In this document: positions 24,777 through 58,994 of the stretch, piece by piece
Layout: each line of letters opens with the position of its first letter
Numbering within the stretch: position 1 is the stretch's first letter
NCBI GenBank assembly: GCA_017411325.1
Contig: JAFQQJ010000064.1
Location: forward strand, 1-64,000
Direction of reading: 5' to 3'
DNA from: Clostridia bacterium
Lineage (GTDB): Bacteria > Bacillota > Clostridia > CAKSNL01 > HGM11501
DNA length: 64,000 bases
The notes under the pieces: model-generated
Databases searched by the model: none
Seen by the model: only the letters and a program-made list of their open reading frames with translations
Told to the model about the DNA's origin: nothing
Program-made: the position numbers and the translations under genes

Positions 24777-24902
24777 AGTTTTATTCCTCCTTTTATCTTG
24801 CGGATTTTTTTCATTTATCACACTTTTATAAGCTTGTAAATGACAAATCAAAGCAAATCCGGTTGATATTTATTTACATTTGCATGTATAAGTCCAATAT
24901 TA

Positions 24903-25621: not shown

Positions 25622-25633
25622 CGGATTTTTTAA

Positions 25634-28600
25634 TCAGCCAACTTTTATGATTTCGGTATAAACTGTCTTTACAGCGCCGCCTTCAACATATGTGATGAAG
25701 CCGCGAGCAGCGATTCCGAGCTCATAATAGCTTGCAGTAAGCTTATACTGACCGGAAGCTGTTTTGTCGCATGTAGCAACCTTGATTGCCTTGCCGTTTA
25801 CGCTTGTTGCGCCAACCTTATCAATTGTAAGGCCGGTTTCATCGGCGTCCTTAGTGTAGATGATACCTGTTTCAATAACCGTTTCCTTAAGCTCTACAGG
25901 AACAATTCTTGTTGTAAGGAAGCTTGCAACATTAATTCCGTTTACGCTGTCCTCTGTTACGGTCATAACGATGTCTATCTCTTCTGTTACTGTTGTACCG
26001 GATGCAACGTAAACTGCTGTAAGAGTGATATCGTGGTCGGGAGCGAAGAATACATAGGGGTTTTCATAGCTTACGATCTCGTCTTTGGAATTTTTCCAAT
26101 GGCTGAACTTTTCGCCGGAGGGTGCTGCATTTGCTGTTACCTCAACAACAGCATCGTATACATAGGTTCCGCTGCCTTCTCCGTTTGTTACGGTAATTTT
26201 GCTCTGCTTGGATTCCTTTGCAACATACTTTGCATAGAAGGACTTGCCTGCATTAAGTACATCTGTAATTGTTACATCTTCACCGTCTTTGTCTACCCAC
26301 TTTTCAAACTCATAACCTGTGGTATAGAGCTTATCAAGAGAAGGAGTTACGGGTGCTGTACCCTTCTTAATGTATCCGTGAGATACTATTGATTTTGCAT
26401 CTCTTCCGTAGAAGCTTACGAAAATTTCTGAAGAGTCGGGATCAGCGAATACAGCCTTGATATCCTTACCAACTGTTGTCTGTACGCTGAGGGAAGGATC
26501 ATTGCCAAGAATCTTACCTGTATTTGCTTCGATCCAGTACTGGAAGAAGCTCTGGTCAGAATTGCCAACCTTGAAGGTAACTTCTGTATTTGCTGATACT
26601 ACGTTATCACCAAGTGAAGGAGTTTCTGTTTCACCTTTAACGATATATACGTTACCGCCTGTGGTGGGTGTAACCTTGATGTTTACTTCTTCTTCTTTTA
26701 CTTCTACTTCGGGAATAGTTTTAAGGAAGGTGATTGCCTTTGCTGTTGAAAGATCTGAAGCATCAACTATAATTCTTACTTCCTTATATGTAACCTTTTC
26801 TGTAAAGTTTACTTCTGCAGTGCCTGCAGCCACGCCCTTAAGTGCTGTCACATCAAATGCCTGGCTCTTTATGAGTACCCAGTTACCGGATGCATCTTTA
26901 CCGTAAACGCTTGCACCGTTCCAGAGACCGGAGTCGGAACTTACTCTTTCGTAATAACGGATACCTGCAATTTCGGTTTCGGTTCCGAAATCAACATCGA
27001 TGTAGAGACGGTTTGTTGTAGCATCTTTTGTAGCAACTCCCGGGGATGTCTCTGTATAAGCAGAGTGCCAGTTATAGTTTACTCCACCTCTGTTTGCAAA
27101 TGCGAAGTTTATATGCTCATCCGCTGTATTTGAGGGGCTGGCTGTAATTGTCCAAGCACCGTCTGTGGGGATGATTTCATCTGCAGCAAATGCTTCTGTG
27201 TTGATGCCGGTTAATTTCTTTCCTTCCTTGGAAAGGGCAACAGTGTATTCCTTTGAAGTTTCATCAGTAAAGTTTACGTTAATCTTGATTTCTGTCTTAT
27301 CAAATATGTCGTCAAGGTCTCTTATTACATAACGCTTAATTGTAAGAGTGCCGTCACCTGCAACAAGGTCAACGGGAATCTTTTCAGGATCAATTGTAAC
27401 TGTCTTGTCGCCATAGGTGATGCCTGTGGGAGTTTTACCTGCGGGAAGCTTAAGTACAAGGTCGTTTGTACCTCTTCCGGTTGCTTCATCAACAATTACA
27501 TAGCTTGCAGAATAAATGTCTTTTCTTGTAATTGTTACATCAATTGCTGCTTCTCCGATTGTAACTGTTAAGGTTGTGTCTCCTGCGCCAAGAGTTCCAA
27601 CAAAGTCTGCAGCAAATGTTAATACGCCGTCTTCAAGGCTGTAGTTTGCAGCGTCAACTGCTTCTCCGCCCTTTGTTACGCTTGTAACAGTTGCACCTGC
27701 GGGAACGTAGAACTTAAAGCTTGCTGCTTCTGCATCGTTTATGTCTGTAATTGCTGTTGCATCTCCGGTAAGTCTTGCAAGGTCCTTTATAAGGTGGATT
27801 GTGTCAACTGTTACATGGGCAGAACCACCGTCAAACTGCATTCTCATATAACGGTAGTTAAACGCCTTATCAAACATAAGGTTGTTTGCATTGGGTGCAA
27901 CTGCACCTGCGGGACCTGAGAAGAATTCTTCCCATTCGTCACTGTCGGAGTTTTTACCGGAAATTGTAATCTTTATATATGTGGAGCCTGATACACGCTC
28001 GGTTACTCTTACACCGGAAAATTCGGGAACATTTGTAGTACCGAAGTCAACATCGATGTAGTGGTCGGCATTTGTATCCTGAATTGCATCGGGGCTGATA
28101 TAGGTGTATGCGGTATGCCAGTTCTGGCTGTCCTTCTTATTTCTTAAAACTTCAACGAATGCTGCCTTAGGATGGCTTCCTCCATTGTTTGCAGAGCTTG
28201 TTCTTACCTTCCACTCGCCTGCAACGGGAGTTATTTCGTCATCGGCAAATGTGCCGTTAACAGCACCTGTTGCAACCCAATCAGCGGAAAGTGTAACAGT
28301 GTATTCCTTTGTTGTTTCATCCGCATAGGTCAAAACAACGGGAACTGTTGCGGTTGAGCCATCTGCGAGACCTATCTTTGTATAAAGGTCAGCAGTTTTT
28401 CTTATTATGTATCTGGGAATTGTGATTACTGTATTGTCGTCAGATGCGGTAAATGCGGGATATACTCTGCTTCCGCCACCTGCTTCAAAGGGAGTCGCCT
28501 CAACACCGTCAATGGTAATTTTGGAAACTTCTTTTCCGTTTGTGCTTGTAAGTACAAGTGCATCTGTACCTCTTCCGTTTGCATCGGAAACAACATAGCT

Positions 28601-31600: not shown

Positions 31601-32014
31601 GGAAAAGCTTCTCTTTTCGCCAAAGTCAAATATAAAGTAGCCTCCCGAAGCAACCTCCGCACCTTCCTGAGGACTGCCGATAAAGCTTTCACCAAGGTCA
31701 TTTCCCTCGGTAATTTTACCATTGTAAAGAGATTCCAGAGTACCTCTTTTACCCGTTCCTTTAAAATCGATTTTAAATCCGGGAATTTCTGTCAGAAGGG
31801 TGATACCATCGCTTTCAGATGTTTCGATTGCAACAATACCTGTCGTCTCCTCTGTAACTTCTTCTGCGAAGAGTTCTACCTCCGCAAGTTCTTCTTCCGT
31901 AACTTCTTCTATTACGGGGATGTCAAATGCTACGTCTTCCTCTGCCCAAGCGGGAACTGCCGTCATAGTAGCCAGCATAGCAAGGGTCAAGAGCAAAGCC
32001 AATGCCTTTTTCAT
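25634..32014 (-). CDS. Giant multi-discoidin surface protein A (2126 aa)
   Basis: Exported protein; ATG 32014 follows AAAGGAGTGG, and the signal peptide ends AVPAWA at about 24. Approximate order: acidic leader FDIPVIEEVTEEEL; three F5/8C-like domains (70-260, 265-435, 470-640; GIRVYDSSRTRYFG, SYWHGDAALG, WYDLDLGKTHTFSAIRLFGR); a FIVAR-like helical segment (640-715; ARKAYDNLPEAAKPYVSE); an Ig-like domain; a fourth F5/8C; then two rounds of X2-like Ig domain, RGT domain (RGTNDLVLKLPAGKTP, TIKRYVIRDLDDIFD) and F5/8C (1250-1400, 1600-1755); three InlB/Flg_new-like repeats (1765-2010; YWIEANTGKILG, GYEFEKWVDKDG); and a conserved C-terminal domain ending RGFITYVEGG. No catalytic, SLH, LPXTG or dockerin motif is seen. 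Glycan binding is inferred. First of four tandem paralogs. Confidence 0.9.
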   Translation of the reverse strand: MKKALALLLTLAMLATMTAVPAWAEEDVAFDIPVIEEVTEEELAEVELFAEEVTEETTGIVAIETSESDGITLLTEIPGFKIDFKGTGKRGTLESLYNGKITEGNDLGESFIGSPQEGAEVASGGYFIFDFGEKRSFSGIRVYDSSRTRYFGSENYSNPTDGANRIKTNRIQFSDDAVNWYEVGQTTAVHNEEGYYSDLPFTFNSNIEVTKVDASTGKESKSSGGVMNINARYIRFLPTAIVTGDAVGFEEIVMLDAVTANPTWSLTGYEIPVSAYESVESGSNWGNYTIAPAYDNNLALNSYWHGDAALGDAATDEDRTVTVKFKEATAIGGIRMFPRNDGTQASPVQNGGSMARKVQFFGSDDGENWYPLSFVLDNNSALGAVGYAAPIDYILPGKMEVKLTYLKMVGLKVNNYVVLPEFQIFTPGIQTAATGYWGMDDVAVLNAKPVVIDGGDNYDNNWNNVSTDPFSGVIQQCVNTNEGFYNIEGSDPHMENNYVYFDGYNGSTDMGGLHEAWYDLDLGKTHTFSAIRLFGRWNQAGQSLIKGYLLVSDNGTDWYRTDTYTDSITNVGGMAKYASTGDCYTDIPLDFGKDMNITARYVRIYCINTAGGDHWSWQQAMLVKPEEDNETKTVTELIAAMDAEAAAVETLIAALPAEITSYNEDVVAARKAYDNLPEAAKPYVSEDSLSALTKAEAANAGFVFTLATNANTGLKHATFTMPKRENTTIKSVTYEDTFGVDHDGLAATSITVDEESGNMTITLAGNYTTETGLTGYSDGSGTYYHNDTNTNYGWTKDQQILPEFFTGIFVREVASDGFGDHFVEVTFEDDVTYVLNIKTTPVWQTLTSAAAITGTEYTDEMTPKATWKSTTTNQNYNMNSAFDGKAEYLLRKAGDTTGNRYESDYIAGNIRKTDDTTTTVVIAYKPVRMDFAIDMGEATTVSGVRLYPRTSSYKEDKTAGSAAGCPTTIRYWGSNNGVDWVNLGDYNFTSDPKTDLTEKTADFGENVAYRYYKGSVLKSNGSAYKHTISISEIAFLVPKTYLRSEDTVTVDTSEDNCAVEFEFLLAGGEGIKSFTDASGNTLTNNVDYKVNVSGKQALITIESDYVKNLADGTHAFTFAVTNGQSFTLTLNVKDYSKASYVVSDANGRGTDALVLTSTNGKEVSKITIDGVEATPFEAGGGSRVYPAFTASDDNTVITIPRYIIRKTADLYTKIGLADGSTATVPVVLTYADETTKEYTVTLSADWVATGAVNGTFADDEITPVAGEWKVRTSSANNGGSHPKAAFVEVLRNKKDSQNWHTAYTYISPDAIQDTNADHYIDVDFGTTNVPEFSGVRVTERVSGSTYIKITISGKNSDSDEWEEFFSGPAGAVAPNANNLMFDKAFNYRYMRMQFDGGSAHVTVDTIHLIKDLARLTGDATAITDINDAEAASFKFYVPAGATVTSVTKGGEAVDAANYSLEDGVLTFAADFVGTLGAGDTTLTVTIGEAAIDVTITRKDIYSASYVIVDEATGRGTNDLVLKLPAGKTPTGITYGDKTVTIDPEKIPVDLVAGDGTLTIKRYVIRDLDDIFDKTEIKINVNFTDETSKEYTVALSKEGKKLTGINTEAFAADEIIPTDGAWTITASPSNTADEHINFAFANRGGVNYNWHSAYTETSPGVATKDATTNRLYIDVDFGTETEIAGIRYYERVSSDSGLWNGASVYGKDASGNWVLIKSQAFDVTALKGVAAGTAEVNFTEKVTYKEVRIIVDASDLSTAKAITFLKTIPEVEVKEEEVNIKVTPTTGGNVYIVKGETETPSLGDNVVSANTEVTFKVGNSDQSFFQYWIEANTGKILGNDPSLSVQTTVGKDIKAVFADPDSSEIFVSFYGRDAKSIVSHGYIKKGTAPVTPSLDKLYTTGYEFEKWVDKDGEDVTITDVLNAGKSFYAKYVAKESKQSKITVTNGEGSGTYVYDAVVEVTANAAPSGEKFSHWKNSKDEIVSYENPYVFFAPDHDITLTAVYVASGTTVTEEIDIVMTVTEDSVNGINVASFLTTRIVPVELKETVIETGIIYTKDADETGLTIDKVGATSVNGKAIKVATCDKTASGQYKLTASYYELGIAARGFITYVEGGAVKTVYTEIIKVG

Positions 32015-32088
32015 AAAGAACCACTCCTTTATATAAATTATGCATTGATTATAACCAAAAGGGTACAATAACACATTTTAGCTATATT

Positions 32089-32117
32089 ATTATAGCATAA
32101 CAAATTTAAAAAAGCAA
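32089..32117 (-). promoter_or_regulatory. Promoter of giant gene A
   Basis: On the minus strand TTGCTT (32112-32117), 17-nt spacer ending TGC, TATAAT (32089-32094), then the AATATAGCTAAAATG tract shared with gene B. The leader is about 70 nt. Confidence 0.8.
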
Positions 32118-32801
32118 GGAGAATTTTTCCGTTTGCGCGGAATGAGAGTAGGGAACGGATTTATCCGTTCCGCTAATTCGGAATGTATAAATGCATTCCC
32201 TACGATTACATTTGTTATTCTAAACGGCCGACGGTGTTTATGAGAAAACTCCTATCGAAGATTCTCTACGGCGAGCAGGCGGGGAAACTGTGTTCTCCCT
32301 AACGTGTGAGCGGCACGGACAATGCGGCAGGAGCAAGCCCCTGCCCTACAGTACTTTTTGTCATTCTGAACGAAGCCGGTGTTTTCTTCCTCTGCCATCT
32401 GAGTGACAGCGTTTTTTGTCATTCTGAACGTAGTGAAGAATCCCCTGAAACACTCGCGGTTGCACTCTATATGAGATTCTTCGCCCTTCGGACTCAGAAT
32501 GACAGCAGTGGGGTGACACAGAATGACAGCGGAGGGGTGGCTCAGAATGACAATGGCGGGGGAAGCGCAATCCCTCCGTCTTTGTCAATCCAAAGACACC
32601 TCCCTTTACACAAGGGAGGCTTTAAAGCGCCTTTTTCAGGCGGATGTAGGGGCAGGGCTTGCTCTGCCCGTGTTTATGCGGGTGCATCGCAGAGTTTTCG
32701 GGAGGGGCAAGCCCCTCCCCTACAACCCCCTTTTTCATTCTGCATAGCCCACGACCGCCGGCATTTTCTTCCGTTGTCTTTCCGAATGACAGCGGTGGAA
32801 T
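32118..32801. repeat. Intergenic repeat mosaic 2
   Basis: No gene. In order: TGTATAAATGCATTCCC (32187 on), a conserved block with GAGCAAGCCCCTGCCCTACA (32331 on), the GTCATTCTGA...TCAGAATGAC palindrome (32418-32503), runs of CAGAATGACAGC, the CAATCCCTCC...GGGAGGCTTT foldback (32567-32635) whose inner stem is GTCTTTG/CAAAGAC, and the TAGGGGCAGGGCTTGCTCTG block (32646 on). From about 32180 to 32810 it is almost identical to 39398-40030, so the spacer was duplicated with its gene. Confidence 0.9.
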
Positions 32802-32844
32802 AAAACAAAAAGCACAGAGGCAGCGCCTCTGTGCTTTTTGTTTT
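32802..32844 (-). terminator. Terminator of giant gene B
   Basis: A 20-bp stem centred on GCACAGAGGC/GCCTCTGTGC with an AGC loop, extended by A/T-rich arms; it begins at the stop codon of gene B. Confidence 0.9.
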
Positions 32845-32847
32845 ATT

Positions 32848-35800
32848 TTAGTTTGTTTTTGGTACAGTTATTGTATCTGTGTAAATTGTTTTGATGCTTC
32901 CATCCGTTAACTTATAAGTGATGAAGCCTCTTGCCTTGATACCAAGAGCTGTATAGCTTGCGGAAAGCTTGTGCTGACCGGATGCTGTATCGCTTGCGAA
33001 TGCAGCCTTTACAGCCTTGCCGTTTGTGCTTGTCTTTCCTACTTCTGCTATTGTAAGCTCTCCGTAAGATGCATCCTTTACGTAAATTACACCTGTTTCA
33101 ATAACTTCTGTTCCTTCGGGAACGTATCTTGTTGTGATGAAACCTGCAACATTTACGCCGTTTATCACGTCGGATGTCTCTGTGATTGTGATGGTTACTT
33201 CCTTTTCGACAGTTTCTGTATCTGCTACAAATACCGCTTCAAGAGTTATGTTTGCGTCAGGTGCAAAGAAACTATATTCCGTTAAATAGCTTACTACCTT
33301 GCCGTCAAGAGTCCAGTGGCTGAACTTATAGCCTGTTTCTGCAGTATTAGCTTTTGCTGTTACATATGTATCATAATCATATGTGCCGCTTGTTGTAGCT
33401 GCACTTCCGGCAGACTTGATTGTTCCGCCTGTTACTGTGATAGTGCTCTTTCGAACGTCTGTGTCAGCCTTCTTTTCATACTGTGCATAGAAGTCTGTAT
33501 CTTTCACGATTGCAGCCGTTACATCTAACTCTTCTCCATTTTTGTCTACCCACTTATCAAACTTATAGCCTGTGGAGTAAAGCTTATCAAGAGAAGGTGC
33601 TACAGCCTTATCGCCCTTCTTTACATAGCCTGTTGCAAGAATCTTGTCGCCGTTTAAGCCGTAGAAGCTTACGAATGCTTCGTGTGCGGAGGGATCGGAG
33701 AATACTGCCTTAATGTCCTTACCGATTACAGACTTGATTGTAAGAGTATTATCTGTTCCGAGAATCTTACCTGTATTTGCTTCTATCCAGTACTTAAATC
33801 CGCCTTCAACATCACTTGATGCGGTGAAGGTTACGTCAGTATTGGATGCAACATAGTTATCGCCTAAGGAAGGAGCTCCATCCACTGTTACGTTACCGCC
33901 TGTGGTGGGTGTAACCTTGATGTTTACTTCTTTTTCGGGAACTACGGGAGCGGGAATTGTGTTAAGGAAGGTGATTGCCTTTGCTGTTACATAGTCTGTG
34001 CCGTCAATAACAAGTCTTACTTCTTCGTACTTAACCTTTTCCGTGAAGTTTACGTCTACAACGGCTGCAGCAACATCCTTAAGAGCCTCTACATCAAACG
34101 CCTGGCTCTTTATGAGAACCCAGTTACCTGATGCGTCCTTACCGTAAACGCTTACGCCGTTCCATACACCTGAATCGTGGCTTACTCTTTCGTAATAACG
34201 GATACCTGCGATTTCGGTTTCAGCGCCGAAGTCAACATCTACATAGAAACGGGTTAAACTTGAGTCTCTCTTAGCAACGGTCGAACCTGCTTCATTCTTA
34301 ACGCCTGTGTATGCGCTGTGCCAAGCATTGTTGCCGGCTGCCGACTTTGCAAATGCAAGGTTTACATGCTCACCTGAGTTGTTTGAAGCACTTGCTGTAA
34401 TTGTCCAAGCGCCTTCTGCGGGGATGATTTCATCAGCTTCAAAGGCTTCTGTCTTAACGCCCGTCAAGGCCTTTCCTTCCTTAGAAAGTGTAACTTTGTA
34501 TTCCTTGGAAGTTTCATCGGAGAAGTTTACGTTAAACTTGATTTCTGACATATCGAAAAGATCGTCAAGGTCTCTTATCACATAACGCTTGATTGTAAGA
34601 GATTTTTCGCCTGCAACAAGCTCAACGGGAATCTTTTCGGGATCAACTGCGATTGTTCTTTCACCATAGGTGATGCCTGTGGGAGTCTTACCTGCGGGAA
34701 TTACAAGTACAAGGTCATCTGTTCCTCTTCCTTCCACTCCGCCTGTTATCATATAGGATACGGAATAGATATCCTTTCTTACAATTGTTACATCAATTGC
34801 TGCACCGTCGATTGTAACGGTCAAGGTTGTACTTGCACCAAGAGTTGCAACATAGTCAGCTTTTATTGTGAGTACACCATCTGCAAAAGTGTAGTTTGCC
34901 GCATCAACTGTTGTTTCTCCGTTTGCTACGCTTACTACGCCTGCAGCATTTTCAGGAAGATAGAAGCTGAAGCTTGCTTCTTCTGCTTCAACGATATCGC
35001 CTGTAACGGTTGCTTCGCTTGTAAGTCTTGCGGTATCTTTAAGAATCTTGATGTTGTCCGCTGTGATATGCTCACTTGAAGATTTGATATGAATTTTTAC
35101 ATAACGATAGGTGTAAGAATCGTCAAATCTCATTTCGGTCTGATATCTCTGAACTGTACCGTCAGAATCGGTATATGTGCCGATGGAGGTATATATGGGC
35201 TTTCCGTTATAAAGCTCTGTCCACTCATCTTCAGCTGCGTTCTTTGCAACAATTGTTACGTTGTTGTTCCAGGTTGTACCGCTGGCTCTTTCAAGGTGAC
35301 GGATACCGTTGTAGGGGTCGGGATTTTCACCGAAGTCAATTTCGTAATAGTGACCGATAGCTGCGGTGGAGTCACCATAGGTTGTTCCGTTGATTCCGCC
35401 GAAGTATGTATGCCAGTGCTGTTCGTTTCTCTTGCCAACGGGTGCCTTGATAAGAGGATGAGGACCTGCGTTAATGTTGTTACCGGAGCTTACTCTTACC
35501 TTCCATGCACCGGGAACGATTTCATCGTATGCATAGGTTGCAGTTTTCTCTCCTGTAACATCTATCCAGGAAGAATCAACCGTTACTTCGTAGGTGAAGG
35601 TTTCATTGTCGTCAAACTTAACTTCAACATTTACCTTACCGGGAGTATCAACGTCAATCGTTGAGTAAAGGTCTGTTGCACGTCTGAAGAGCTGTCTCTT
35701 AACTGTGATTGTGTTCGTGTCATCGGACTGGATGAATGCAACATCTGCTCGTACGTCGCCGTTTACAACTGTTACGGCAGAAACTGTTTTACCTGTCTTG

Positions 35801-39240: not shown

Positions 39241-39308
39241 AAAGAACCACTCCTTTATTTATTTTACATCAACCCCAAAAGGGTATACAGATGCATTTTA
39301 GCTATATT

Positions 39309-39337
39309 ATTATATCACAACAAGTTCCAAAAAGCAA
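39309..39337 (-). promoter_or_regulatory. Promoter of giant gene B
   Basis: On the minus strand TTGCTT (39332-39337), 17-nt spacer ending TGTGA, TATAAT (39309-39314), followed by the same AATATAGCTAAAATG tract as gene A. Confidence 0.8.
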
Positions 39338-40030
39338 GGGGAAAATATAGTTTGTGCAGCCGGGGAGATAGGGAACGAATTTATCCTTTACGCTGTTTCG
39401 GAACGCATAAATGCATTCCCTGCGATTCCATTTGTTATTTTAAACGGCCGACGGTGTTTATAAGAAAACTCCTATCGAAGATTCTCTACGGCGAACAGGC
39501 GGGGAAAACCGTGTTCTCCCTAACGTGTGAGCGGCACGGACAATGCGGCAGGAGCAAGCCCCTGCCCTACAGTACTTTTTGTCATTCTGAGCGAAGCCGG
39601 TGTTTTCTTCCTCTGCCATCTGAGTGACAGCGTTTTCTTTGTCATTCTGAACGTAGTGAAGAATCTCCTGAAACACTCGCGGTTGCATTCTATATGAGAT
39701 TCTTCGCCCTTCGGACTCAGAATGACAGCAGTGGGGTGACATAAAATGACAGCGGAGGGGTGGCTCAGAATGACAATGGCGGGGGAAGCGCAATCCCTCC
39801 GTCTTTGTCAAGCCAAAGACACCTCCCTTTACACAACGGAGGCTTTAAAGCGCCTTTTTCAGGCGGATGTAGGGGCAGGGCTCGCTCTGCCCGTGTTTAT
39901 GCGGGTGCAACGCAGAGTTTTCGGGAGGGGCAAGCCCCTGCCCTACAACCCTCTTTTTCATTCTGCATAGCCCACGACCGCCGGCATTTTCTTCCGTTGT
40001 CATTCCGAATGACAGCGGTGGAATAAAACA
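39338..40030. repeat. Intergenic repeat mosaic 3
   Basis: No gene. It is a near copy of mosaic 2 (about 39398-40030 against 32180-32810). It contains the CATAAATGCATTCCC block, the GTCATTCTGA...TCAGAATGAC palindrome (39641-39726), the CAATCCCTCC foldback (39789-39850; inner stem GTCTTTG/CAAAGAC) and the TAGGGGCAGGGCTCGCTCTG block (39869 on). Confidence 0.9.
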
Positions 40031-40064
40031 AAAAAACGCAGAGGCTTTCGCCTCTGCGTTTTTT
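40031..40064 (-). terminator. Terminator of giant gene C
   Basis: Stem AAAAAACGCAGAGGC/GCCTCTGCGTTTTTT with a TTTC loop; U-rich tail on the minus strand, 9 nt past the stop codon. Confidence 0.92.
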
Positions 40065-40072
40065 GTTTTATT

Positions 40073-43000
40073 TTAGTTTGTTTTTGTTACTGTTATTGTA
40101 TCTGTGTAAATTGTTGTAAGAGCGCCATCCTTCATATAGGTTAAGAAGCCTCTTGCCTTGATACCGAGCTCTGCATAGCTTGCGGAAAGCTTGTGCTGAC
40201 CGGTTCCAGTTTCGGAAGCGAATGCCGCCTTTACAGCCTTGCCGTTTGTGCTTGTCTTACCAACAGATGCGATTGTAAGATCGCCGTAGGATGCATCCTT
40301 TACGTAAATTACACCGGTTTCTATAACTTCTGTTCCTGTAGGAACGTATCTTGTTGTGATGAAACCTGCAACATTTACGCCGTTTATCACGTCGGATGTC
40401 TCTGTGATTGTGATGGTTACTTCCTTTTCGACAGCTTCTGTATCTGCTACAAATACTGCTTTAAGAGTGATATCAGCATCGGGTGCGAAGAAGAAATAAT
40501 CGGATGCGTAGCTTACTGTCTTACCATCAAGTGTCCAATGGCTGAACTTCTGTCCATCGGGAGCTGTATTAGCTGTTGCACATACCTTTGTATCGTATGC
40601 AAATGTGCCGCTCTCAGTACCTGCAACACCGCTGCCTACTTCAGCAATAGTACCGCCTGTTACGGTGATTACGCTCTGTCTTACGCTGTCTTCCTTCTTT
40701 TCATAATAAGCATAGAATTCCGTATTTTCAGTTACTGCAGCAGCTGCGTCAACCGCTGTTCCTTCCTTATTTGTCCAGAACTTAAATTCATAACCTGTGG
40801 TGTAAAGCTTTTCTTCAGAAGGAACTGTAGGTGCATTACCCTTCTTTACATAGCTGGATGCAAGAATATTCTTAGCATTTCTGCCATAGAAGCTTACGAA
40901 TGCTTCAAATGCGGAAGGATCAGCAAATACCGCCTTGATATCCTTACCGATTGCAGACTTAACAGTAAGAGAAGGATTGGTTCCTAAAATCTTACCTGTG
41001 TTTGCTTCAATCCAGTACTGGAAGCCGCCTTCAACATCACTTGATGCGGTAAAGGTTACTTCCTTGTTTGCCGCAACATAGTTATCGCCCAAGGACGGAG
41101 TTTCATTAACTGTTACGTTACCGCCTGTGGTGGGTGTAACCTTGATGTTAATCTCGTCTTCTACCTCAGGAACAGAAGCTCTTGTGCCGGCCTTAAGGAA
41201 TGTAAAGTGCTTAGCTGTTGCGTGAGTTGAGCAGTCGATAACGATTCTTACCTGACTGTAGGTTACATCCTCGCCGAAGTAAACTGTTGCTTCACGTGTG
41301 TTATAAATGCTGCCTGCATTAACGGCGGGCTCACTCTTGTTGTAATTGCTTGTGTCAAATGCCTGGCTCTTTATGAGAGTCCATTCGTCTGTATCGGCGT
41401 TACGTCCGTAAAGCGCAGCACCGTGCCATACACCGGAATCATCATATCCCGATGCCGCTGTAGAACTGGTGTTTGTTCTTGCGTAATAACGGAAGCCTGC
41501 AAAGGACTCAGCCTCGGCGAAGTATACATCAACAGTGTGACGGTTTGTTCTGATATCGGCAACACCGTTTCCTGTGTAGCCCGTGTGGTATGTCATTGCA
41601 ACACCGCTGTATTTTTTGAACATACGGTCGGGGGATGCATCATTGTTGTTTGCTGTGATGTACTTAACTGACCACTCGTTATCCTCAGGGATTATTTCGT
41701 CCTCCAGGAAGTTATCGGTAACCACACCGGTAACAGCAACTATAACATTTGTAAGATTTACTGTGTAAGGCTTATCAGCTTCGCCTTCAAAGCTTACGGT
41801 AAGCTTGATGCTTGTCATATCAAACATATCGTCAAGATTTCTGAAGTCGGGACGGGCAATCTTAATCTTACCCTCTTCAACAACGAAGGGAACATTCTTT
41901 TCACCGTATTTAACGGCTGTTACTGTCTTTTCGCCGACGATGGGAAGATAAAGCTCTTCGTCACCTCTTGCATTAGTTGCTCCGCCTGTAAGTGCATAAG
42001 TTACAGCGTACTTATCCTGCTTTGTTACGGTGATTTCTGATGCGAAGCCGTCGATTGTGGCAACAAGTGTTGTGTCGCCCACGGGAAGATTATTTGTATA
42101 AGAAGCCTTTACTGTAAGAGTACCTGTTTCCTTATCCCATGCGTAATCGTCTTCTGTAAGGGTAACATCACCGTTTGTAAGGGTAAGTGCACTTTCGTTG
42201 CCGCTTACAAGCTTGAAGGTAAATATTGCATCTTCCTCTGTGTTGATATCAACAATTGAGTTATCAATTACGGGCTTTGCAACTGCCTTTATAATGTGAA
42301 TTGTATCCGCTGTGATATGAGCTGATGTGGATATAGCCTGGATTCTTAAGTAACGGTAGGTTACGGGTTCAGCAAACAAGATGTCTGTGCTGAACATGGG
42401 GTGGTTGCCTTCTACGGAATAACCGAGCAGCTTATAAACGGGTTTAGCGTTGTGGAGTTCTACCCAGTCGTCATTTGCATTAGCCTTACCCCAAACGATA
42501 ACCTTTGTATTCCAGGTTGTACCGCCGGCTCTTTCTCTGTGACGGATACCTGCATACTTTGTCATATTTTCACCGAAGTCAACTTCAACGTAGTGACCGC
42601 GGGCTGCAACAGAGTCGGCAACGCCGCCCTGACCGTCAACTGTGGAGAATGCGGAGTGCCAGTTCTGATTGTCCTTCTTTTCTACTGCCTTTTTGTAGAA
42701 TGCAAATGCAGCAAGGTTTGCTGTTGAAGAGTAGGAGCTGCCTCTTACCTTCCATGCGCCTGCTGCAGGCTTGATTTCGTCTGCTAAGAAATCAGCCACG
42801 GGCTCACCTGTTGCAATCCAGTCAGACTTGATTGTAACATAATAGGTCTTTGTTGAATCATCCTCGTAGGTAACGAGAATTTCAACAACGCCGTCTTCTG
42901 CCACATCCATTGTAGCAAAGAGGTCATACGCCTGTCTTAATACTGTACGTCCGATTGTTATGGTCTTATTATCAACGCTCTGTGTGAATGCGAGTGCTAT

Positions 43001-46000: not shown

Positions 46001-47206
46001 CACGCTTTCCTCAGCAAGGGCAATGTCAAGATACCAGTAGGTATCGTTTCTTTCGATTGTTGCACCAAGCTCTTCCCAGTTTTCGCCGTCGTCGGAAACT
46101 TTAACGAGAACACTGGTGGGGATTCTTCTTACATTTCCGTTCTGAGAAGTGTCAGCTGACCAATATCCGTTTGCCCAGCTTGCGGTTCTTGTGTTCATCC
46201 ACATACGGACACCACGGAACGCCTTAGCTTCGCTGAGAACAACTTCCGCATAGTGACCTGCTGTATTGTTCGAAGAACCAAGACTCCAGGTTTCGCCGCC
46301 TCTTGTGCCGTCGATGAGAGAAGCCTTTGCTGTACCGTCAAAGTTAACGCTGTCACCGGCTGTAAGCATAGTTACGCCCTGCTTTTCAGCATCGGTAAGT
46401 GCTGCAGACATATTTATGTTAACCGTGATATCTGTGTCCATAACCTTTGTTGCGTTTTCTGTAACGGGGTCAAGCATAACAATTTCTTCAAGCTCGAATT
46501 CACCAAAGCCGTTAATTGCGGATACCGTGAAACGAAGATAACGTGCTGTTACGTTGATTGCTGTGCCGCCGGATTTAAACACAAAGTCTCCCGACTCTGT
46601 TGCGGTCGCATCGGTGCTTCTTGCTGCAGCATCAAGGCCATGCCACTTGAAAAGATTATCATTGGAAACCTGCATATTTATGGTCTTTATATCTCTTACA
46701 CCGCCGGTTGAATAGCTACGGCTTCTTGAAGCATCATAGATTCTTACACCGGAAAAGGTTTTGGGTTCACCAAAGTCAATCGTTATTGTTGTAGGATTCG
46801 CATTGTTTGCAGGGAGACCCAAAAAGCCTTCAGCCTTACCGTTTGAATGGTAATAGAAAGAATGCTTTGATGTATCGCCCCATGTACCTGTGGTGTACAT
46901 GCCGTTAGTGATGCTTCCAAAATCACCTTCTGAGCCTCCGGTGTAGCTTACGGACGCATCGGTAAGTTCTGTAAAATAGGTTACACCGTCGCCTTCGGCA
47001 GGCTCAAAAGTCTGAAGCGCCATGGTTGATTCCATAAGCTCAACCTCATCGCCGAAGATTTCAACATAATCTTCTTCCAATTCTTCTTCCGTAACTTCTT
47101 CTATTACGGGGATGTCAAATGCTACGTCTTCCTCTGCCCATGCAGGAACTGCCGTCATAGTCGCCAGCATAGCAAGGGTTAAGAGTAAAGCCAATGCCTT
47201 TTTCAT
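40073..47206 (-). CDS. Giant multi-discoidin surface protein C (2377 aa)
   Basis: Largest of the four paralogs. ATG 47206 follows AAAGGAGTGG; the signal peptide and leader (MKKALALLLTLAMLATMTAV to FDIPVIEEVTEEEL) match protein A exactly. It has the common architecture but adds one F5/8C-like domain near the N-terminus (SSNNTAGHYAEVVLSEAKAF, FRGVRMWMNTRTAS) and a second helical segment (FAERIDAVEALIEAIGEV, then NPYDVTLEDASEIADLQAEY), explaining about 240 extra residues. F5/8C examples are TFSGVRIYDASRSRSYSTGG, DFSGVRIYGRTAHG and YAGIRHRERAGGTTWN. X2-like and RGT domains (ARGDEELYLPIVGEKTV) are more divergent than in A and B. The InlB-like repeats and the C-terminal domain are nearly identical to B, fitting a duplication of this end together with the downstream spacer. 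Confidence 0.9.
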   Translation of the reverse strand: MKKALALLLTLAMLATMTAVPAWAEEDVAFDIPVIEEVTEEELEEDYVEIFGDEVELMESTMALQTFEPAEGDGVTYFTELTDASVSYTGGSEGDFGSITNGMYTTGTWGDTSKHSFYYHSNGKAEGFLGLPANNANPTTITIDFGEPKTFSGVRIYDASRSRSYSTGGVRDIKTINMQVSNDNLFKWHGLDAAARSTDATATESGDFVFKSGGTAINVTARYLRFTVSAINGFGEFELEEIVMLDPVTENATKVMDTDITVNINMSAALTDAEKQGVTMLTAGDSVNFDGTAKASLIDGTRGGETWSLGSSNNTAGHYAEVVLSEAKAFRGVRMWMNTRTASWANGYWSADTSQNGNVRRIPTSVLVKVSDDGENWEELGATIERNDTYWYLDIALAEESVAANFTAKYIRVIPKAIKDGWGEWEIGEVALINTDDSLEKSFDSVAAIDAQYDYYKQAKYFTHTSGAGIPIEYEGKTYTNTGNWNSSDLLFDGNLSGTSYYHTAANISVNGDGNAPYVPIPEEIRTITITFNEAKAIGGFRIYGRTDNMGGNPYRVSVYASNDGEEYIKVLNSASTGFSNSTPTAPATVKVEKNLPAYKYYKFVVNATAGSGSTTAHTCYAELQVLKPIDFGVDLHEGDFIPYPVGKVETYTVAKDGTASLHSNGQNSMKLIDGVIIDSAILAEIQASGGDQYAYQVSHDYKIGGCIADDHAEKSKYTSESAYILYDLGSTVDFSGVRIYGRTAHGSQAFKSGYVYVSEDGVNWLAADEFVTDSPMVNDLSFKFDGTAYNARARYVKIHCLATNSGHWSMEEIRLLNPVDANETKTPTELEAVFAERIDAVEALIEAIGEVTEESADKVIAAREAYDLLPDGLKSKVENYETLLEAEAALESFDVAALNAKIAAINPYDVTLEDASEIADLQAEYDALSDGAKANIVGFDTLKAALSGLTEEVWPQNLSPRTETNKGGELGYTTVDYTLYVSGNDVTVTGVTYEGEAVTNTYDEWTYVNNGDGTMTFTLGGNYWDSPEWNKWLYSMTRASIQSGKAGTGYYTFVDDMSALGAKAGDNISEELFKGFFVRKLTSEKMGDHKLVLTLSDGTTKEIILSAKYQWNDVNVTVGSDDAADAISVSKIKVASNNLAPNGGYARWFNGGYGDATNAETYTARWRDTAGTDKGVQHLVYAPGPLSVWVDFGTATTLGGIRATDKSYNLNDTSVYGSDDLVTWTLIGEKKDNAAKKTEVIFDENETYRYIQIRFDKFQNGNATYLFMDEIVFLKPMTRVSGESTISVDPSEGNKASFKFAFAADETLTGVTLSGAAVTEYTYEDGTLTFNDDYITSLADGSHVFTATFSNGATLTLTVDKKDTSKVTYTLANSTSRASENLVFESLRGVKAESVAITDGNIALAFTQSVDNKTITIGRTVLRQAYDLFATMDVAEDGVVEILVTYEDDSTKTYYVTIKSDWIATGEPVADFLADEIKPAAGAWKVRGSSYSSTANLAAFAFYKKAVEKKDNQNWHSAFSTVDGQGGVADSVAARGHYVEVDFGENMTKYAGIRHRERAGGTTWNTKVIVWGKANANDDWVELHNAKPVYKLLGYSVEGNHPMFSTDILFAEPVTYRYLRIQAISTSAHITADTIHIIKAVAKPVIDNSIVDINTEEDAIFTFKLVSGNESALTLTNGDVTLTEDDYAWDKETGTLTVKASYTNNLPVGDTTLVATIDGFASEITVTKQDKYAVTYALTGGATNARGDEELYLPIVGEKTVTAVKYGEKNVPFVVEEGKIKIARPDFRNLDDMFDMTSIKLTVSFEGEADKPYTVNLTNVIVAVTGVVTDNFLEDEIIPEDNEWSVKYITANNNDASPDRMFKKYSGVAMTYHTGYTGNGVADIRTNRHTVDVYFAEAESFAGFRYYARTNTSSTAASGYDDSGVWHGAALYGRNADTDEWTLIKSQAFDTSNYNKSEPAVNAGSIYNTREATVYFGEDVTYSQVRIVIDCSTHATAKHFTFLKAGTRASVPEVEDEINIKVTPTTGGNVTVNETPSLGDNYVAANKEVTFTASSDVEGGFQYWIEANTGKILGTNPSLTVKSAIGKDIKAVFADPSAFEAFVSFYGRNAKNILASSYVKKGNAPTVPSEEKLYTTGYEFKFWTNKEGTAVDAAAAVTENTEFYAYYEKKEDSVRQSVITVTGGTIAEVGSGVAGTESGTFAYDTKVCATANTAPDGQKFSHWTLDGKTVSYASDYFFFAPDADITLKAVFVADTEAVEKEVTITITETSDVINGVNVAGFITTRYVPTGTEVIETGVIYVKDASYGDLTIASVGKTSTNGKAVKAAFASETGTGQHKLSASYAELGIKARGFLTYMKDGALTTIYTDTITVTKTN

Positions 47207-47292
47207 ATAAACCACTCCTTTGGTTGATATTTTATGGCACATAGGTGCCGGAACATTGTACAAAAGTGCCAAGATACACTTTCAGTACTACT

Positions 47293-47321
47293 ATTTTATC
47301 ACAACCGCCTTTAATTTCCAA
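47293..47321 (-). promoter_or_regulatory. Promoter of giant gene C
   Basis: On the minus strand TTGGAA (47316-47321), 17-nt spacer ending TTGTGA, TAAAAT (47293-47298). The TTGTGA-TAaAAT core is shared with genes B and D. Confidence 0.72.
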
Positions 47322-47424
47322 TCCTTTTTTGTCACACAGTGTTTTTTCTACTTTTTGCACAAACAACAATACCTTCTTTTGTGCAAAAAAGCAAAGCCGC
47401 TATCCGGACAGGCGGACAAACATA

Positions 47425-47635
47425 TGAGATTCTTCGCCCTGCGGCGTTTTCTTGGAAAAAGCCTGTGGGCTCAGAATGACAGCGGCGGGAGAAGGCAACG
47501 CCGTAGGGTTCGGCGGTCTGTGGCAAACAAACAATCAGGGAAGAAATGCGTTCTCCCAAAAGGGTGTGCAGCACGGGATAATGCGGCAGGAGCAAGATTC
47601 TGCCCTACAGTGCTTTTTATCATTCTGAACGGAGC
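47425..47635. repeat. 211-bp direct repeat, copy 1 (in mosaic 4)
   Basis: Begins TGAGATTCTTCGCCCTGCGG and ends CATTCTGAACGGAGC. Nearly identical to 47711-47922, which lies 75 bp further on; it includes a right palindrome half, a CAACGCCGTAGGGTTCGGCG block and a GTGTGCAGCACGGGATAATG block. Confidence 0.92.
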
Positions 47636-47710
47636 GCGGCGCTATTCTGTCATTCTGAGTGAGCGTGGCGAGCGAAGAATCCCTTTCCGGAATGCCGGGT
47701 ATTATTTATT

Positions 47711-47922
47711 TGAGATTCTTCGCCCTGCGGCGTTTTCTTGGAAAAAGCCTGTGGGCTCAGAATGACAGCGGCGGGCGAATGGCAACGCCGTAGGGTTCGG
47801 CGGTCTGTGACGAACAAACAATCAGGGAAGAAGTGCGTTCTCCCAAAAGGGTGTGCAGCACGGGATAATGCGGCAGGAGCAAGATTCTGCCCTACAGTGC
47901 TTTTTATCATTCTGAACGGAGC
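47711..47922. repeat. 211-bp direct repeat, copy 2 (in mosaic 4)
   Basis: Second copy of 47425-47635, differing at only a few bases. Such closely spaced, near-identical copies suggest recent local duplication of repeat elements. Confidence 0.92.
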
Positions 47923-48197
47923 CGGTTCCATTTTGTCATTCTGAACGAGCACAGCGAGTGAAGAATCTCCTGCGACACACCTTTATACAGAAAAAAGCAG
48001 ATTCTTCGTTCATTGCATTCTATCAGAATGACAGCGATGGACGTGGATAATGCATCGCAGGCGAAACACAATCCCTCCGTCATCGGAGATTTTCGCCTTC
48101 GGCTGAAAAATCTCCGATGACACCTCCCTTTACACAGGGAAGGCTTTATAAAATGTTTCGGAATTCATAAATGCATTCCCTGCGATATCGCAACAAA

Positions 48198-48229
48198 AAA
48201 AAGGACGATGCTTTTGCATCGTCCTTTTT
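48198..48229 (-). terminator. Terminator of giant gene D
   Basis: Perfect 14-bp stem AAAAAGGACGATGC/GCATCGTCCTTTTT with a TTTT loop, 9 nt past the stop codon. Its stem sequence is unrelated to the CAGAGGC terminators of A, B, C and the S-layer gene. Confidence 0.93.
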
Positions 48230-48238
48230 AAGCTTTAA

Positions 48239-51200
48239 TTAATTTTCCGAGCAGTCGATTTTGTAGAAATCGGTATAAACTGTCTTAACTTCTTCGCCGT
48301 CAAGATATGTGATAAAGCCTCGTGCAGAGATTCCGCCGTAATCCTTATAGCTTGCAGTAAGCTTATACTGACCGGAGGTCTTTGAATCGCAAAGAGCTAC
48401 CTTTATCTTCTTGCCGTCCGCAGTAGTCGTTCCGATCATATCTATGGTAAGGTCTGTTACACCGTCGTCCTTAACATAGATTACGCCTGTTTCAAGAACT
48501 GTTACGCCTTCGGGAACAACTCTTGTGGTAAGGAAGCTTGCAACAAGTATTGTTTCATCTTCGTTTGCCACTGTATCCTGTGATACTGTCATTGTGATGC
48601 CCACAGCTTTTTCAACAACTGCATCTTCTGCTACATAAACCGCAGTAAGAGCCACATCCATATCGGGTGCGAAGAAGATGTATGTTTCTGTGTAGCAAAC
48701 AATCTTTTCGTCAATAGTCCAGTATGCAAATTTCTGTCCTTCTTCTGCCTCTGCTGCCACAGCCTTAACCTTTGTATCGTATGCATAGGTCTTTTCGGAA
48801 GCAGCTTCGTCGGTTTCGTCGAAGAGTCCAACTGTACCGTTTGTTACTGTAATAGTGCTCTGTTTTGTTCCCTTTGCTTCGTATAATGCATAGTATTCTG
48901 TTTCTGCATTTATCTTGGCTGTTACATCAACGTCGCCGCCGTCCTTGTTAACCCACTTCACAAAGCTGTAGCCTGTGGTGTAAAGCTGATCAGCGGAGGG
49001 AGCAACGGGAGCAGTACCCTTCTTTACATAACCGGAGGATACAAGCTTAGCACCGTCTCTTCCGATGAATGCATAGAATGCTTCAAATGCGGAGGGATCT
49101 GCAAATATTGCTCTGATGTCCTTACCAACAGATGTTTTTATGGTGATACCTGTTGTTGCATCTGTGCCAAGGATTTTACCTGTGTTTGCTTCAATCCAGT
49201 ACTTGAAGAGTGCTTCATCTGCCGTTAATGTAATGCTGTCGTTTGCAGCTACGTTGGCAGAACCGAGAGAAGGTACACCGTCGATATAAACGTTACCGCC
49301 TGTTGTGGGTGTTACATCAATCTTAACCTCATCCTCTTCTGCACCGGGAGCGCTTGCGCCTTCCTTAAGAAGTGTAAGAGCCTTTGCGGTTGCATACTTA
49401 AAGTAACCTGCATCTGCAACAATTAAAACATCATCTGCATATACGGGCTCGTCAAAGTAAACGGTTGCAACCCTTGTTTCACCGAGGGTTGTCTTATCAA
49501 AGTTCTGAGACTTTACAAGTGTCCATTCTTCGTCGTCTAACTCTTTTACATATACGGTTACACCGTCCCATGTACCTGCAAGATTATCTGTTCTTGAATA
49601 GTAACGGATACCGGAGAAGGTAACGCCGCTGTCAGTAGAGAGCATAATATAGTGTCTGCCTTCCTCGGAGTCTGCCACAGCCTTTACATTATCGGGATCG
49701 CTTCTGTCCTCGGTGTATGCACTGTGCCAGTAAGTACCTGTCTTACTGAAGATACTTGAAACCACGTTATTGTCGGAATTTGTGGATAATGTGGTTGCAG
49801 ACCACATATCAGGCACAATTTCGTCATCGAGGAACAATGTCTCATCTGCTTCGGGAACCTCAAGCCATTCGGTCTGAAGGTTTATTGTGTAAGTAGCCGT
49901 TTCAGTGTCGCTGAAGGTTGCATTAAGAGTAACACTATCTACCTCGAAGAAGTTATCAAGACCTCTGAAGTTGTAACGAAGTACGGTTGCCTTGCCATCT
50001 GCCTGAGTGAAGGCAACATCCTTATCCCCATACTTAAGGGTGCTTAATGTCTTTCCTTCGGGAATGGTGATTACAAGATTGTCTGTACCTCTTGCATTGT
50101 CTGTTTCCGTTAAATAGTAGGTTTCAGAATAGTAGTCCTTAAGTTCTACATCCATTTCAAAGTACTCGGAGGAGTCAATCTGTACCTTTACTTCGAAAGA
50201 ACCTGTTCCAAGAGTCTTTAAGTAATCAGCCTTTAATGTAAGAGCTCCTGCATCTACATCCCATGTGTAATTTGCCGCATCAACTGCAGCATCTGCCACC
50301 TTAACGTTGATTATTCCTTCCGCATCCGCAGGTACGTGGAAGGTAAACTTCGCATCGGTTACGTTATCCTTGTCGATAACCACCTTTTCGGGGCCTGTGA
50401 ATGTAACCTTATCCTTTATAAAGTGGATTGTGTCCGCTGTTATATGGTTGGATGTGGATACAATGTGAATTCTTAAGTAACGGTAGGAAACTGCCTTACC
50501 GAAGAGAATGTCGGAAGAATAAATCGGAACACTGTTTTCGCCGACTGTATAATCGCCAACCTTTTCATAGTAGGGCTTAGCAGAGTAAACCTCTGTCCAC
50601 TCTTCATCTGCACTGTTTTTACCTGTTACCGTAACCAAAGTATTCCAGGTTGTTCCGCCGGGACGTTCAAGATGACGGATACCTGTGTAGGGAGTCACGT
50701 TCTCGCCGAAGTCAACGTCTAAGTAGTGACCGATTGCCGCGGTGGAGTCGCCTGTTCCGCCAACGCCGTTAACTGTGCTGTGGTAGGAGTGCCAGTTCTG
50801 GTAATCCTTCTTGCCTATCGCCTTTGCAGAAAGCACGTTGCTGGGCTGATTTACATCAAGAGCAGAGCTTACTCTTGCCTTCCACTTAGTAGTGTCGGGA
50901 ATGATTTCGTCATCGGCAAATTCGCCCGATGTACCTGTTACTGCTACCCATGCAGCATCAACAGTAACCGTGTAGGTCTTGGTTGTACTGTCGCTGAAGG
51001 TTGCAACAACCTTAACCTCGCCGCCCTTATTAACATCGATTAAAGAGAAGAAGTCGCCTGAACGTCTGAAGTACTGTCTTATAACGGTAATTTCCTTGTT
51101 GTCATCAGACTGGGTAAACTCAAGTTCAGTTCCGTCTTCAAGCTCAAGGGCTGTTACTTCCTTAGCCGATGTGTTTGTAAGAACAAGAGCACCTGTTCCG

Positions 51201-54200: not shown

Positions 54201-54613
54201 TCACCAAAGTCGATGGTGATGGTATCCCCCTTGAAAATCATGTAGCCTTCTTCAACGTCGCCGTCTTTGATAAACTGACCGCCAAGGTCATCGCCAACGG
54301 TAATCTGTCCGTTGTAAAGAGAAGCGATGGCACCTTCTGAGCCTTTACCTGTTACGTTCTGAAATGAAACGTCTACACCGTCAATTTCAGAAAGAAGGGT
54401 AATTCCATCGGTTTCGGATGTTTCGATTGCGGCAAAATCTTCATCTGCCATAAGTTCAATCTCTTCACCGAAGAGGTCCACTTCTGTAAGCTCTTCCTCA
54501 GTAACCTCTTCGATTACGGGAAGGTCCAATGTTGCGTCTTCTGCCCATGCCGGTACTGTGCAAAGAGTTGCCAGCATCGTGAGTGTGAGCAGTATTGACA
54601 ATGCCTTTTTCAT
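48239..54613 (-). CDS. Giant multi-discoidin surface protein D (2124 aa)
   Basis: Fourth paralog, most like A in its N-terminal half and helical segment. Signal peptide MKKALSILLTLTMLATLCTV-PAWA, then LDLPVIEEVTEEELTEVDLF. F5/8C-like regions include AFSGIRLWDSSRTRYFGT, SSYWHSFADPSNQYPDR with IGGIRLWPRNDATAEAN, YTFSGARIFGRWNQPGQAL, ISGIRIYPRVSSYKED, YTGIRHLERPGGTTWN and VTFSGIRYYSRTDNLAG. A helical segment (SAIADIEAARSAYEALPEGA), an Ig-like domain, X2-like domains (TWDVDAGALTLKADYLKTLG), two RGT domains (RGTDNLVITIPEGKTLS), three InlB-like repeats (YSFVKWVNKDGGDVDV) and the conserved C-terminal domain (SARGFITYLDGEEVKTVYTD) complete it. The ATG at 54613 has AAAGGAGTG. No anchor or enzyme motif is visible; probable secreted glycan-binding protein. 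Confidence 0.9.
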   Translation of the reverse strand: MKKALSILLTLTMLATLCTVPAWAEDATLDLPVIEEVTEEELTEVDLFGEEIELMADEDFAAIETSETDGITLLSEIDGVDVSFQNVTGKGSEGAIASLYNGQITVGDDLGGQFIKDGDVEEGYMIFKGDTITIDFGEKMAFSGIRLWDSSRTRYFGTYGTDGTGNEPRPGARRIVTSTVYFSDDGENWYRTFPAAAVYNEEGLYSDLLFPMNGKGAKINLNARYIKFEATTVTETWGELEMEEIAMIDANSDLKTWSLDGHEIPNSAIESVVAGSEWNTISYKVSNAYDGMISLSSYWHSFADPSNQYPDRVYTDEDRSFVITLKEKTKIGGIRLWPRNDATAEANAKSTATMRKVRLMGSEDGTNWYNITSVTADLHNTYDANGYMMPVDVIIPSFIDADLKYIKVVGEKVDNYVCLAEFQLLDEGAKTGTVSAYLSDDDVVTWKAVPAQTAFYSSLGKSIAVNTSVFDGQVHQVINEGEGYYATWLTANNDPHWEIDNALTGDGYVTVDFDLGKSYTFSGARIFGRWNQPGQALTKGHIWVSDDGETWYKSDLHEDGGTTVNIAFEGGAIERVALAKYASTGEIYTDIPATFGEDYNITARYIRIHCAETGGGNHWSFQELLLTAPDNANPTKTPTELGVILKAEADEVTAVINALSASSAIADIEAARSAYEALPEGAKELVTEETLNKLADAEALVKGSIYEMSVAQSTGLNKATFTLPVRDNMEIKSVTYTDTLGRVIDGTDAASVTNDGTNMTITLAGGYETATGLTAYTDGSKGTLYFGTANTTYGWTAGQEIQPSFFTGSFVRKVTSDGIGNHYITITFGDDSTATVNIKTTADFIQLTSAAAIEGSEYDDEIAPKTTWKATTTIRNRDMNKAFDGQVEYLIRKGGATTANNRYETDFVAGKYTANADLSGAVEQVLLYPPVRLDFILDTGEETEISGIRIYPRVSSYKEDKTAGSAAGAPTQIRYWGSDDGEDWVSLGDYTFTTNLTEKTAKFSDIVSYRYYKGSVTKSNGLEYKQTISISEITLLKADTMLTSDEVVTVDASENKAAEFTFALVDDETVASLKDADGSDVAYTFADGVLAISKDTVATLANGENVFTVTFTNDAEFTLTVNKTDTSKVTYMLFDASNGTGALVLTNTSAKEVTALELEDGTELEFTQSDDNKEITVIRQYFRRSGDFFSLIDVNKGGEVKVVATFSDSTTKTYTVTVDAAWVAVTGTSGEFADDEIIPDTTKWKARVSSALDVNQPSNVLSAKAIGKKDYQNWHSYHSTVNGVGGTGDSTAAIGHYLDVDFGENVTPYTGIRHLERPGGTTWNTLVTVTGKNSADEEWTEVYSAKPYYEKVGDYTVGENSVPIYSSDILFGKAVSYRYLRIHIVSTSNHITADTIHFIKDKVTFTGPEKVVIDKDNVTDAKFTFHVPADAEGIINVKVADAAVDAANYTWDVDAGALTLKADYLKTLGTGSFEVKVQIDSSEYFEMDVELKDYYSETYYLTETDNARGTDNLVITIPEGKTLSTLKYGDKDVAFTQADGKATVLRYNFRGLDNFFEVDSVTLNATFSDTETATYTINLQTEWLEVPEADETLFLDDEIVPDMWSATTLSTNSDNNVVSSIFSKTGTYWHSAYTEDRSDPDNVKAVADSEEGRHYIMLSTDSGVTFSGIRYYSRTDNLAGTWDGVTVYVKELDDEEWTLVKSQNFDKTTLGETRVATVYFDEPVYADDVLIVADAGYFKYATAKALTLLKEGASAPGAEEDEVKIDVTPTTGGNVYIDGVPSLGSANVAANDSITLTADEALFKYWIEANTGKILGTDATTGITIKTSVGKDIRAIFADPSAFEAFYAFIGRDGAKLVSSGYVKKGTAPVAPSADQLYTTGYSFVKWVNKDGGDVDVTAKINAETEYYALYEAKGTKQSTITVTNGTVGLFDETDEAASEKTYAYDTKVKAVAAEAEEGQKFAYWTIDEKIVCYTETYIFFAPDMDVALTAVYVAEDAVVEKAVGITMTVSQDTVANEDETILVASFLTTRVVPEGVTVLETGVIYVKDDGVTDLTIDMIGTTTADGKKIKVALCDSKTSGQYKLTASYKDYGGISARGFITYLDGEEVKTVYTDFYKIDCSEN

Positions 54614-54710
54614 AAAGAATCACTCCTTTTTCCGGGGCAAAGCCCCTTATTTATTCGTGCCTTCAGGCACCAAACATTAAAAAGCGTACAAAGACACTTT
54701 TAGTAATATT

Positions 54711-54740
54711 ATTTTATCACAATCCCGGCGTGTTTTCCAA
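54711..54740 (-). promoter_or_regulatory. Promoter of giant gene D
   Basis: On the minus strand TTGGAA (54735-54740), 18-nt spacer ending TTGTGA, TAAAAT (54711-54716), followed by AATATTACTAAAAGTG. Same design as gene C. Confidence 0.7.
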
Positions 54741-55720: not shown

Positions 55721-55725
55721 GCAAA

Positions 55726-55755
55726 AAAACACAGAGGCTTTCGCCTCTGTGTTTT
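55726..55755 (-). terminator. Terminator of the S-layer-type gene
   Basis: Thirteen-bp stem AAAACACAGAGGC/GCCTCTGTGTTTT with a TTTC loop and an A-rich left flank giving a minus-strand U-tract. The stem matches that of giant gene A. Confidence 0.9.
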
Positions 55756-55772
55756 AATTAATCGTAAACTGA

Positions 55773-58923: not shown

Positions 58924-58994
58924 TGCTATTCGATGACTTGTAACATAACTGTAAAAAAGCAAACACACAGCTGCAAAAAAACACATCTTTTCCA

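Follow-up and report, generated by a model that had tools for sequence, protein, structure and literature searches.

The window analysed here, a 64,000-nucleotide stretch (positions 1 to 64,000) of contig JAFQQJ010000064.1 from an uncultured Clostridia bacterium (GCA_017411325.1), contains four giant open reading frames (ORFs) that take up the region 25.6–54.6 kb and lie head to tail on the minus strand, all with intact frames. Giant 1 (P0001, 25634..32074) most likely starts from the ATG at 32014 and encodes 2126 aa, giant 2 (P0002, 32848..39240) 2130 aa, giant 3 (P0003, 40073..47272, likely ATG at 47206) 2377 aa, and giant 4 (P0004, 48239..54613) 2124 aa, the lengths being counted from the common MKKAL start. 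These ORFs agree with an earlier interpretation of the same letters made without database searches (hereafter the sequence-only reading), which had described four same-strand paralogs of 2124–2377 codons. Giants 2–4 exhibit 40–50% overall identity to giant 1. The array is real, lineage-restricted and of unusual scale, and it is built from modules of known kinds; what is new is that the giant genes are mosaics.

Iterated profile hidden Markov models built from the proteins themselves revealed a module order common to all giants. Behind the signal peptide and an acidic leader come three F5/8C modules, one FIVAR-like helical module and a long X2-like module of ~155–180 aa, giant 3 having a fourth F5/8C module here and a second FIVAR-like one; then follow the series F5/8C-X2-X2-F5/8C-X2-X2-F5/8C, three repeats of the InlB type and, at the terminus, an Ig-like domain. 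In giant 1 (ORF numbering) the F5/8C modules correspond to aa 81–278, 279–448, 456–646, 871–1059, 1271–1432 and 1624–1787, the FIVAR-like module to aa 649–716, the long X2-like Ig module to aa 717–872, the X2 pairs to aa 1061–1269 and 1434–1621, and the InlB repeats with the terminal Ig domain to aa 1788–2146. Giant 2 follows the plan of giant 1; giants 1, 2 and 4 possess six F5/8C modules each and giant 3 possesses seven. The single domain order proposed by the sequence-only reading therefore stands as one plan for all copies, but not every F5/8C module is N-terminal, since in each protein three of them lie between the X2-type Ig pairs, and giant 3 departs from uniformity by one additional F5/8C and one additional FIVAR-like module.

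The assignment of the modules to the F5/8C type is supported: the families identified by Pfam in the giants are F5_F8_type_C (whole-protein E-values from 1e-31 to 1e-41), CBM_X2 and Flg_new(_2), and the PF00754 profile matches 23 of the 25 F5/8C modules taken singly (E<=0.01, best 1.9e-13), with galactose-oxidase and CBM32 domains as the nearest solved structures. CBM_X2 (PF03442) weakly matches 8 of the 16 Ig modules (best E 3.4e-7), and the first and the second Ig module of each X2 pair are related (hhalign probability 92, E 6.6e-7). For the FIVAR-like module together with the long X2-like module only a low-confidence model was obtained (predicted local distance difference test, pLDDT, 65); the latter belongs to no family, but because hhalign links it, weakly, to the second X2 module, an Ig module that has been elaborated is a more likely reading of it than an enzyme.

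No enzyme family was recognized by Pfam in the four giants or by NCBIfam in giants 1 and 3, in agreement with what had been read from the letters alone. That the unassigned region hides an enzyme is unlikely, given the empty NCBIfam search and the weak hhalign link to X2, although the pLDDT 65 model leaves a small chance of a new fold there. As neither cohesin nor dockerin was matched by Pfam in any of the four giants, their description as non-cellulosomal also holds. The giants are likewise devoid of SLH repeats (Pfam) and of an LPXTG sorting signal (LPXTG, hydrophobic stretch, basic tail), their C-termini ending with ...YTEIIKVG, ...VPKTN, ...VTKTN and ...KIDCSEN.

Comparison of the copies revealed that the nearest paralogue shifts along the array: from the first to the fourth F5/8C module giant 1 is closest to giant 4, over aa ~1440 to 1790 it is closest to giant 2, and the most similar C-termini are those of giants 2 and 3. 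In the tree of the segment FIVAR-longX2-F5/8C4 giants 1 and 4 group together with support 100/100 and the grouping of 1 with 2 is rejected by the approximately unbiased (AU) test (p-AU 5.9e-6); in the tree of X2-X2-F5/8C6 giants 1 and 2 group together, again with support 100/100, and the grouping of 1 with 4 is rejected (p-AU 3.5e-4). These p-values are optimistic, because the groupings were picked after the similarity profile had been viewed; the log-likelihood differences are large, 142 and 33 units. Synonymous divergence (dS) follows the same division, being 0.5–1.0 in the giant 1–2 block only, 0.4–0.8 in the C-terminus of giants 2 and 3, and mostly >1 or saturated elsewhere. Both signs by which we judged recombination, i.e. 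conflict between segment trees and block-wise synonymous divergence, are present, and the giants are mosaics that arose by tandem duplication with mosaicism between paralogues. The claim that the copies differ mostly in their F5/8C modules turned out to be wrong: X2 modules of different copies exhibit about 33 to 74% identity, X2 and linker modules vary as much as F5/8C, and comparative conservation is confined to the signal peptide with the leader and to the last ~360 aa.

The giants were also compared with those of a sister species (G001). Seven ordinary gene pairs (a further pairing, 57% identical and evidently not of orthologues, was left out) served as background and exhibit 94.6–98.9% protein identity and dS of 0.17–0.57. 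Giant-type genes are found in G001 as a single complete copy and as several fragments. Giant 4 alone among the array copies has a close orthologue of full length in the sister-species contigs examined (94.3% identity, dS 0.10). Giant 3 and its counterpart are 53.5% identical, with dS of 1.14 in the aligned C-terminal part, and return to dS of 0.3–0.7 in the C-terminal module, and the G001 fragment found at the position of giant 1 is only ~40% identical to it, although the adjoining gene for a glycoside hydrolase-like (GH-like) protein is 96% identical. Block boundaries are also seen in a fifth paralogue, which ends with SLH repeats (see below): its dS is near 0.1 (mostly 0–0.35) in the first ~850 codons and after codon ~2390, ranges from 0.35 to saturated in the block of aa ~850–2390, and at the second boundary falls from about 0.8 to 0.04 within a few tens of codons. 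The divergence of the giants between sister species is thus block-wise, and the high dS of the blocks, which amino-acid selection alone does not explain, points to exchange with diverged sources or to long-kept alleles.

The fifth paralogue (3480 aa; L011:6204-16646, contig C14 of the same genome) comprises 12 F5/8C modules and three terminal SLH repeats, with the core FIVAR-long X2-F5/8C-X2-X2-F5/8C as in the giants; it sits downstream of another GH-like/F5/8C pair. The "system of four" is accordingly too narrow, as a member of the same plan lies on another contig. Elsewhere in the genome (contig C37, L039:4070-18769) a 4900-codon open frame was found with four F5/8C modules and a C-terminus resembling an SLH repeat. 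A protein of 2377 aa from another genus of the family (G002) possesses FIVAR, X2, F5/8C and the C-terminal module, joined to domains of the sialate-esterase (SASA) and CE2/GDSL types and to BspA-type repeats. A search for the architecture in other Clostridia yielded no whole-profile match outside the family among 391 sampled genomes (E<=1e-40, with the top two candidates per genome scored). Within the comparison, which took in four genomes of this one family, the full architecture was found only in its own genus. Searches of phages and viral contigs identified no relatives, and therefore no phage origin is indicated.

The conserved C-terminal module, i.e. the three InlB-type repeats and the terminal Ig-like domain, maps to the minus strand at 25637..26713 in giant 1, 32851..33954 in giant 2 (75% identical to that of giant 3), 40076..41185 in giant 3 and 48242..49357 in giant 4. 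That of giant 1 is predicted to form an all-beta string (pLDDT 88). Comparison with PDB sequences gave no convincing match, and Foldseek reported only weak all-beta matches with low TM-scores (surface-protein, pilin, GhpA and InlB-type). The module alone is present in 8 of the 391 sampled Clostridia genomes (E<=1e-20), and in other Clostridia it also closes giant fn3/CARDB/PKD proteins. Small secreted proteins composed of this module alone are encoded in the source genome and in G002 (L095:2685-3812, L067:1384-2496), and on contig C46 the partner protein adjoining another GH-like gene bears it as well.

The intergenic spacers are related to one another. The repeat-rich spacer 32075..32847 has a near-duplicate in 39241..40072, and together with the signal-peptide starts of giants 1 and 2 the two regions are 91% identical over 914 bp. 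The spacer 47207..48238 exhibits an internal tandem duplication (142-nt and 72-nt repeats at ~286-nt spacing) of elements of the TCAGAATGACA...GATTCTTCG type, which also occur in the spacer upstream of giant 4 (54614..55772); the same dispersed family is found in 24852–25633 and 58761–59653. The family (TCAGAATGACA / GATTCTTCG) is locus-enriched: one motif has 10 exact copies across the assembly, 8 of which fall within the window, and a further search gave a similar result. The Rfam search of the whole window returned no matches, hence the spacers correspond to no described RNA family. Between 39.2 and 59.0 kb a promoter scan found no excess (27 sites versus a shuffle mean of 29.8), while terminator-like sites numbered 29 versus 18.9; clear hairpins follow giant 3, giant 4 and the SLH gene.

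The array is flanked by a GH-like/discoidin pair and by a gene for an SLH-domain surface protein (55773..58760, minus strand). Both had been noted from the sequence alone, yet with the orientation reversed: with respect to transcription the pair is downstream and the SLH gene upstream. The GH-like secreted protein (22089..24851, minus strand) is composed of a CBM6-like N-terminus, a middle part with a WNEW motif and a CuAO_N1 C-terminus, and its partner (19434..22076, minus strand) of four F5/8C modules and CuAO_N1. The label "GH71/99-like" given to the former is unproven, since Pfam recognizes only its two ends and the middle part has no Pfam match even at E<=1. This two-gene unit is hugely expanded in the genome (2.94 Mb), where relatives of the GH-like protein account for 46 matches and 124 kb in all, an F5/8C match lies directly downstream of 34 of the 46 (among the matches listed), and F5/8C matches number at least 150; at E<=1e-60 relatives occur in 23 of the 391 sampled Clostridia genomes. 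The gene at 13102–15726 encodes a secreted protein in which repeated beta-type units are combined with SLH repeats at the C-terminus, no other family being recognized. Of the window genes that were scanned with Pfam, in a scan that was not exhaustive, none was recognized as a recombinase.

The strongest result of the analysis is an evolutionary one, namely that the ends of the giants are conserved and their middle appears to have been exchanged or replaced. We consider it probable that the giants act outside the cell as multivalent adhesins for glycans and that intragenic recombination has diversified them. They would be secreted, non-catalytic, elongated proteins, in which F5/8C (CBM32-like) modules are threaded on X2-type Ig spacers and closed by the beta-rich C-terminal module; with the modules strung on spacers in this way, one giant could make six or seven contacts with a polysaccharide or a glycoprotein, and probably fastens the cell, or the cell's numerous GH/discoidin proteins, to a complex substrate. 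Tandem duplication, followed by recombination inside the genes, would have made the repertoire, with the middle swapped or replaced while the 5' leader and the C-terminal module stayed. The carbohydrate setting speaks strongly for this interpretation, with the 46 GH-like relatives, the at least 150 F5/8C matches and the esterase fusions of the sister genus, and a surface location of the family is supported by the SLH-bearing paralogue of the same plan; we infer that the giants bind glycans and are attached to the cell surface, and that their diversity is due to selection. The sequence-only reading had supposed that the array diversifies binding: the diversification gains support from the AU conflicts and dS blocks, although it is not confined to F5/8C; binding itself is predicted from module similarity, and any specificity for galactose is putative. 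Several points weigh against our interpretation. Identity of the F5/8C modules to the first one is only 13–52%; in C. perfringens CpGH89 two of the six CBM32-like modules were suggested to be non-functional, and multi-CBM32 enzymes bind glycans through some modules, not all (PMC3313936); the four giants have no recognized anchor and therefore may be released; the background of seven pairs is a small sample; and G001 is a draft of 540 contigs, 75% complete, in which giant genes may have been assembled chimerically.

More tentatively, the array and the SLH paralogue could constitute a cassette system generating new multivalent lectins, in which the conserved 5' leaders, the C-terminal modules and the locus-enriched intergenic repeats would provide homology for recombination, and paralogues or other lineages would supply replacements for F5/8C/X2 blocks; genes that are orthologous otherwise would thereby come to differ almost completely in their middle between sister species.

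A variant of the adhesin interpretation, to which we give less credence, is that the giants are released lectins, not attached to the cell, which cover the substrate and bring in, or lend help to, the GH-like/discoidin pairs. SLH and LPXTG are absent from the four giants, such a pair lies directly downstream of the array, and the C46 partner protein shares their C-terminal module; against this, the SLH paralogue retains their module plan, and the C-terminal module could itself be the anchor. Or perhaps the giants form a structural or defensive coat of S-layer-associated or fibrous proteins, with F5/8C modules as folded spacers or protein-protein contacts and a middle that varies under targeting by phages, predators or host immunity? 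The SLH gene immediately upstream of the array, the SLH-bearing paralogue and the occurrence of the C-terminal module in the fn3/CARDB/PKD giants agree with this possibility, and conserved ends, a variable middle and replacement of high-dS blocks recall the 13 types of the C. difficile S-layer cassette (PMC8881574); however, the carbohydrate setting (the 46 GH-like genes, the at least 150 F5/8C matches and the esterase fusions in the sister genus) favors work on glycans, and we regard the coat as unlikely. Neutral divergence of old paralogues under relaxed constraint, with mosaicism simulated by uneven rates or alignment error, for which high divergence, repeat-rich spacers and the fragmented sister draft might be adduced, is very improbable in view of the dS steps inside one gene (aa ~2390 of the SLH paralogue), the strong topology conflicts and the intact frames.

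If the adhesin interpretation is true, the giants represent a natural module-exchange system that makes multivalent sugar-binding proteins without enzymes, and they offer a testable model for the diversification of bacterial lectin repertoires together with many diverse CBM32-like modules to assay. Among known systems, CpGH89 (PMC3313936) similarly combines several F5/8C/CBM32 modules within one secreted protein, but has a catalytic GH89 domain, while the giants have no recognized catalytic domain and exhibit X2-type pairs and a tandem mosaic array. The CipC scaffoldin, whose double X2 mutant lost 70% of cell attachment to cellulose (PMC9022034), likewise uses Ig-type X2 modules as non-catalytic parts of a binding protein; in the giants, by contrast, no cohesin, dockerin or CBM3 was found, and only half of their Ig modules match CBM_X2, weakly. 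SLH-anchored giants and S-layer-associated proteins resemble the same-plan paralogue with its three terminal SLH repeats, whereas the four array members have another C-terminal module in place of SLH. Finally, in the C. difficile S-layer cassette (PMC8881574) a surface-protein gene also exists in diverged variants, and a title cited in that paper names recombinational switching; in the giants, however, the change occurs at the scale of module blocks within multi-F5/8C genes and is known here from the comparison between species.

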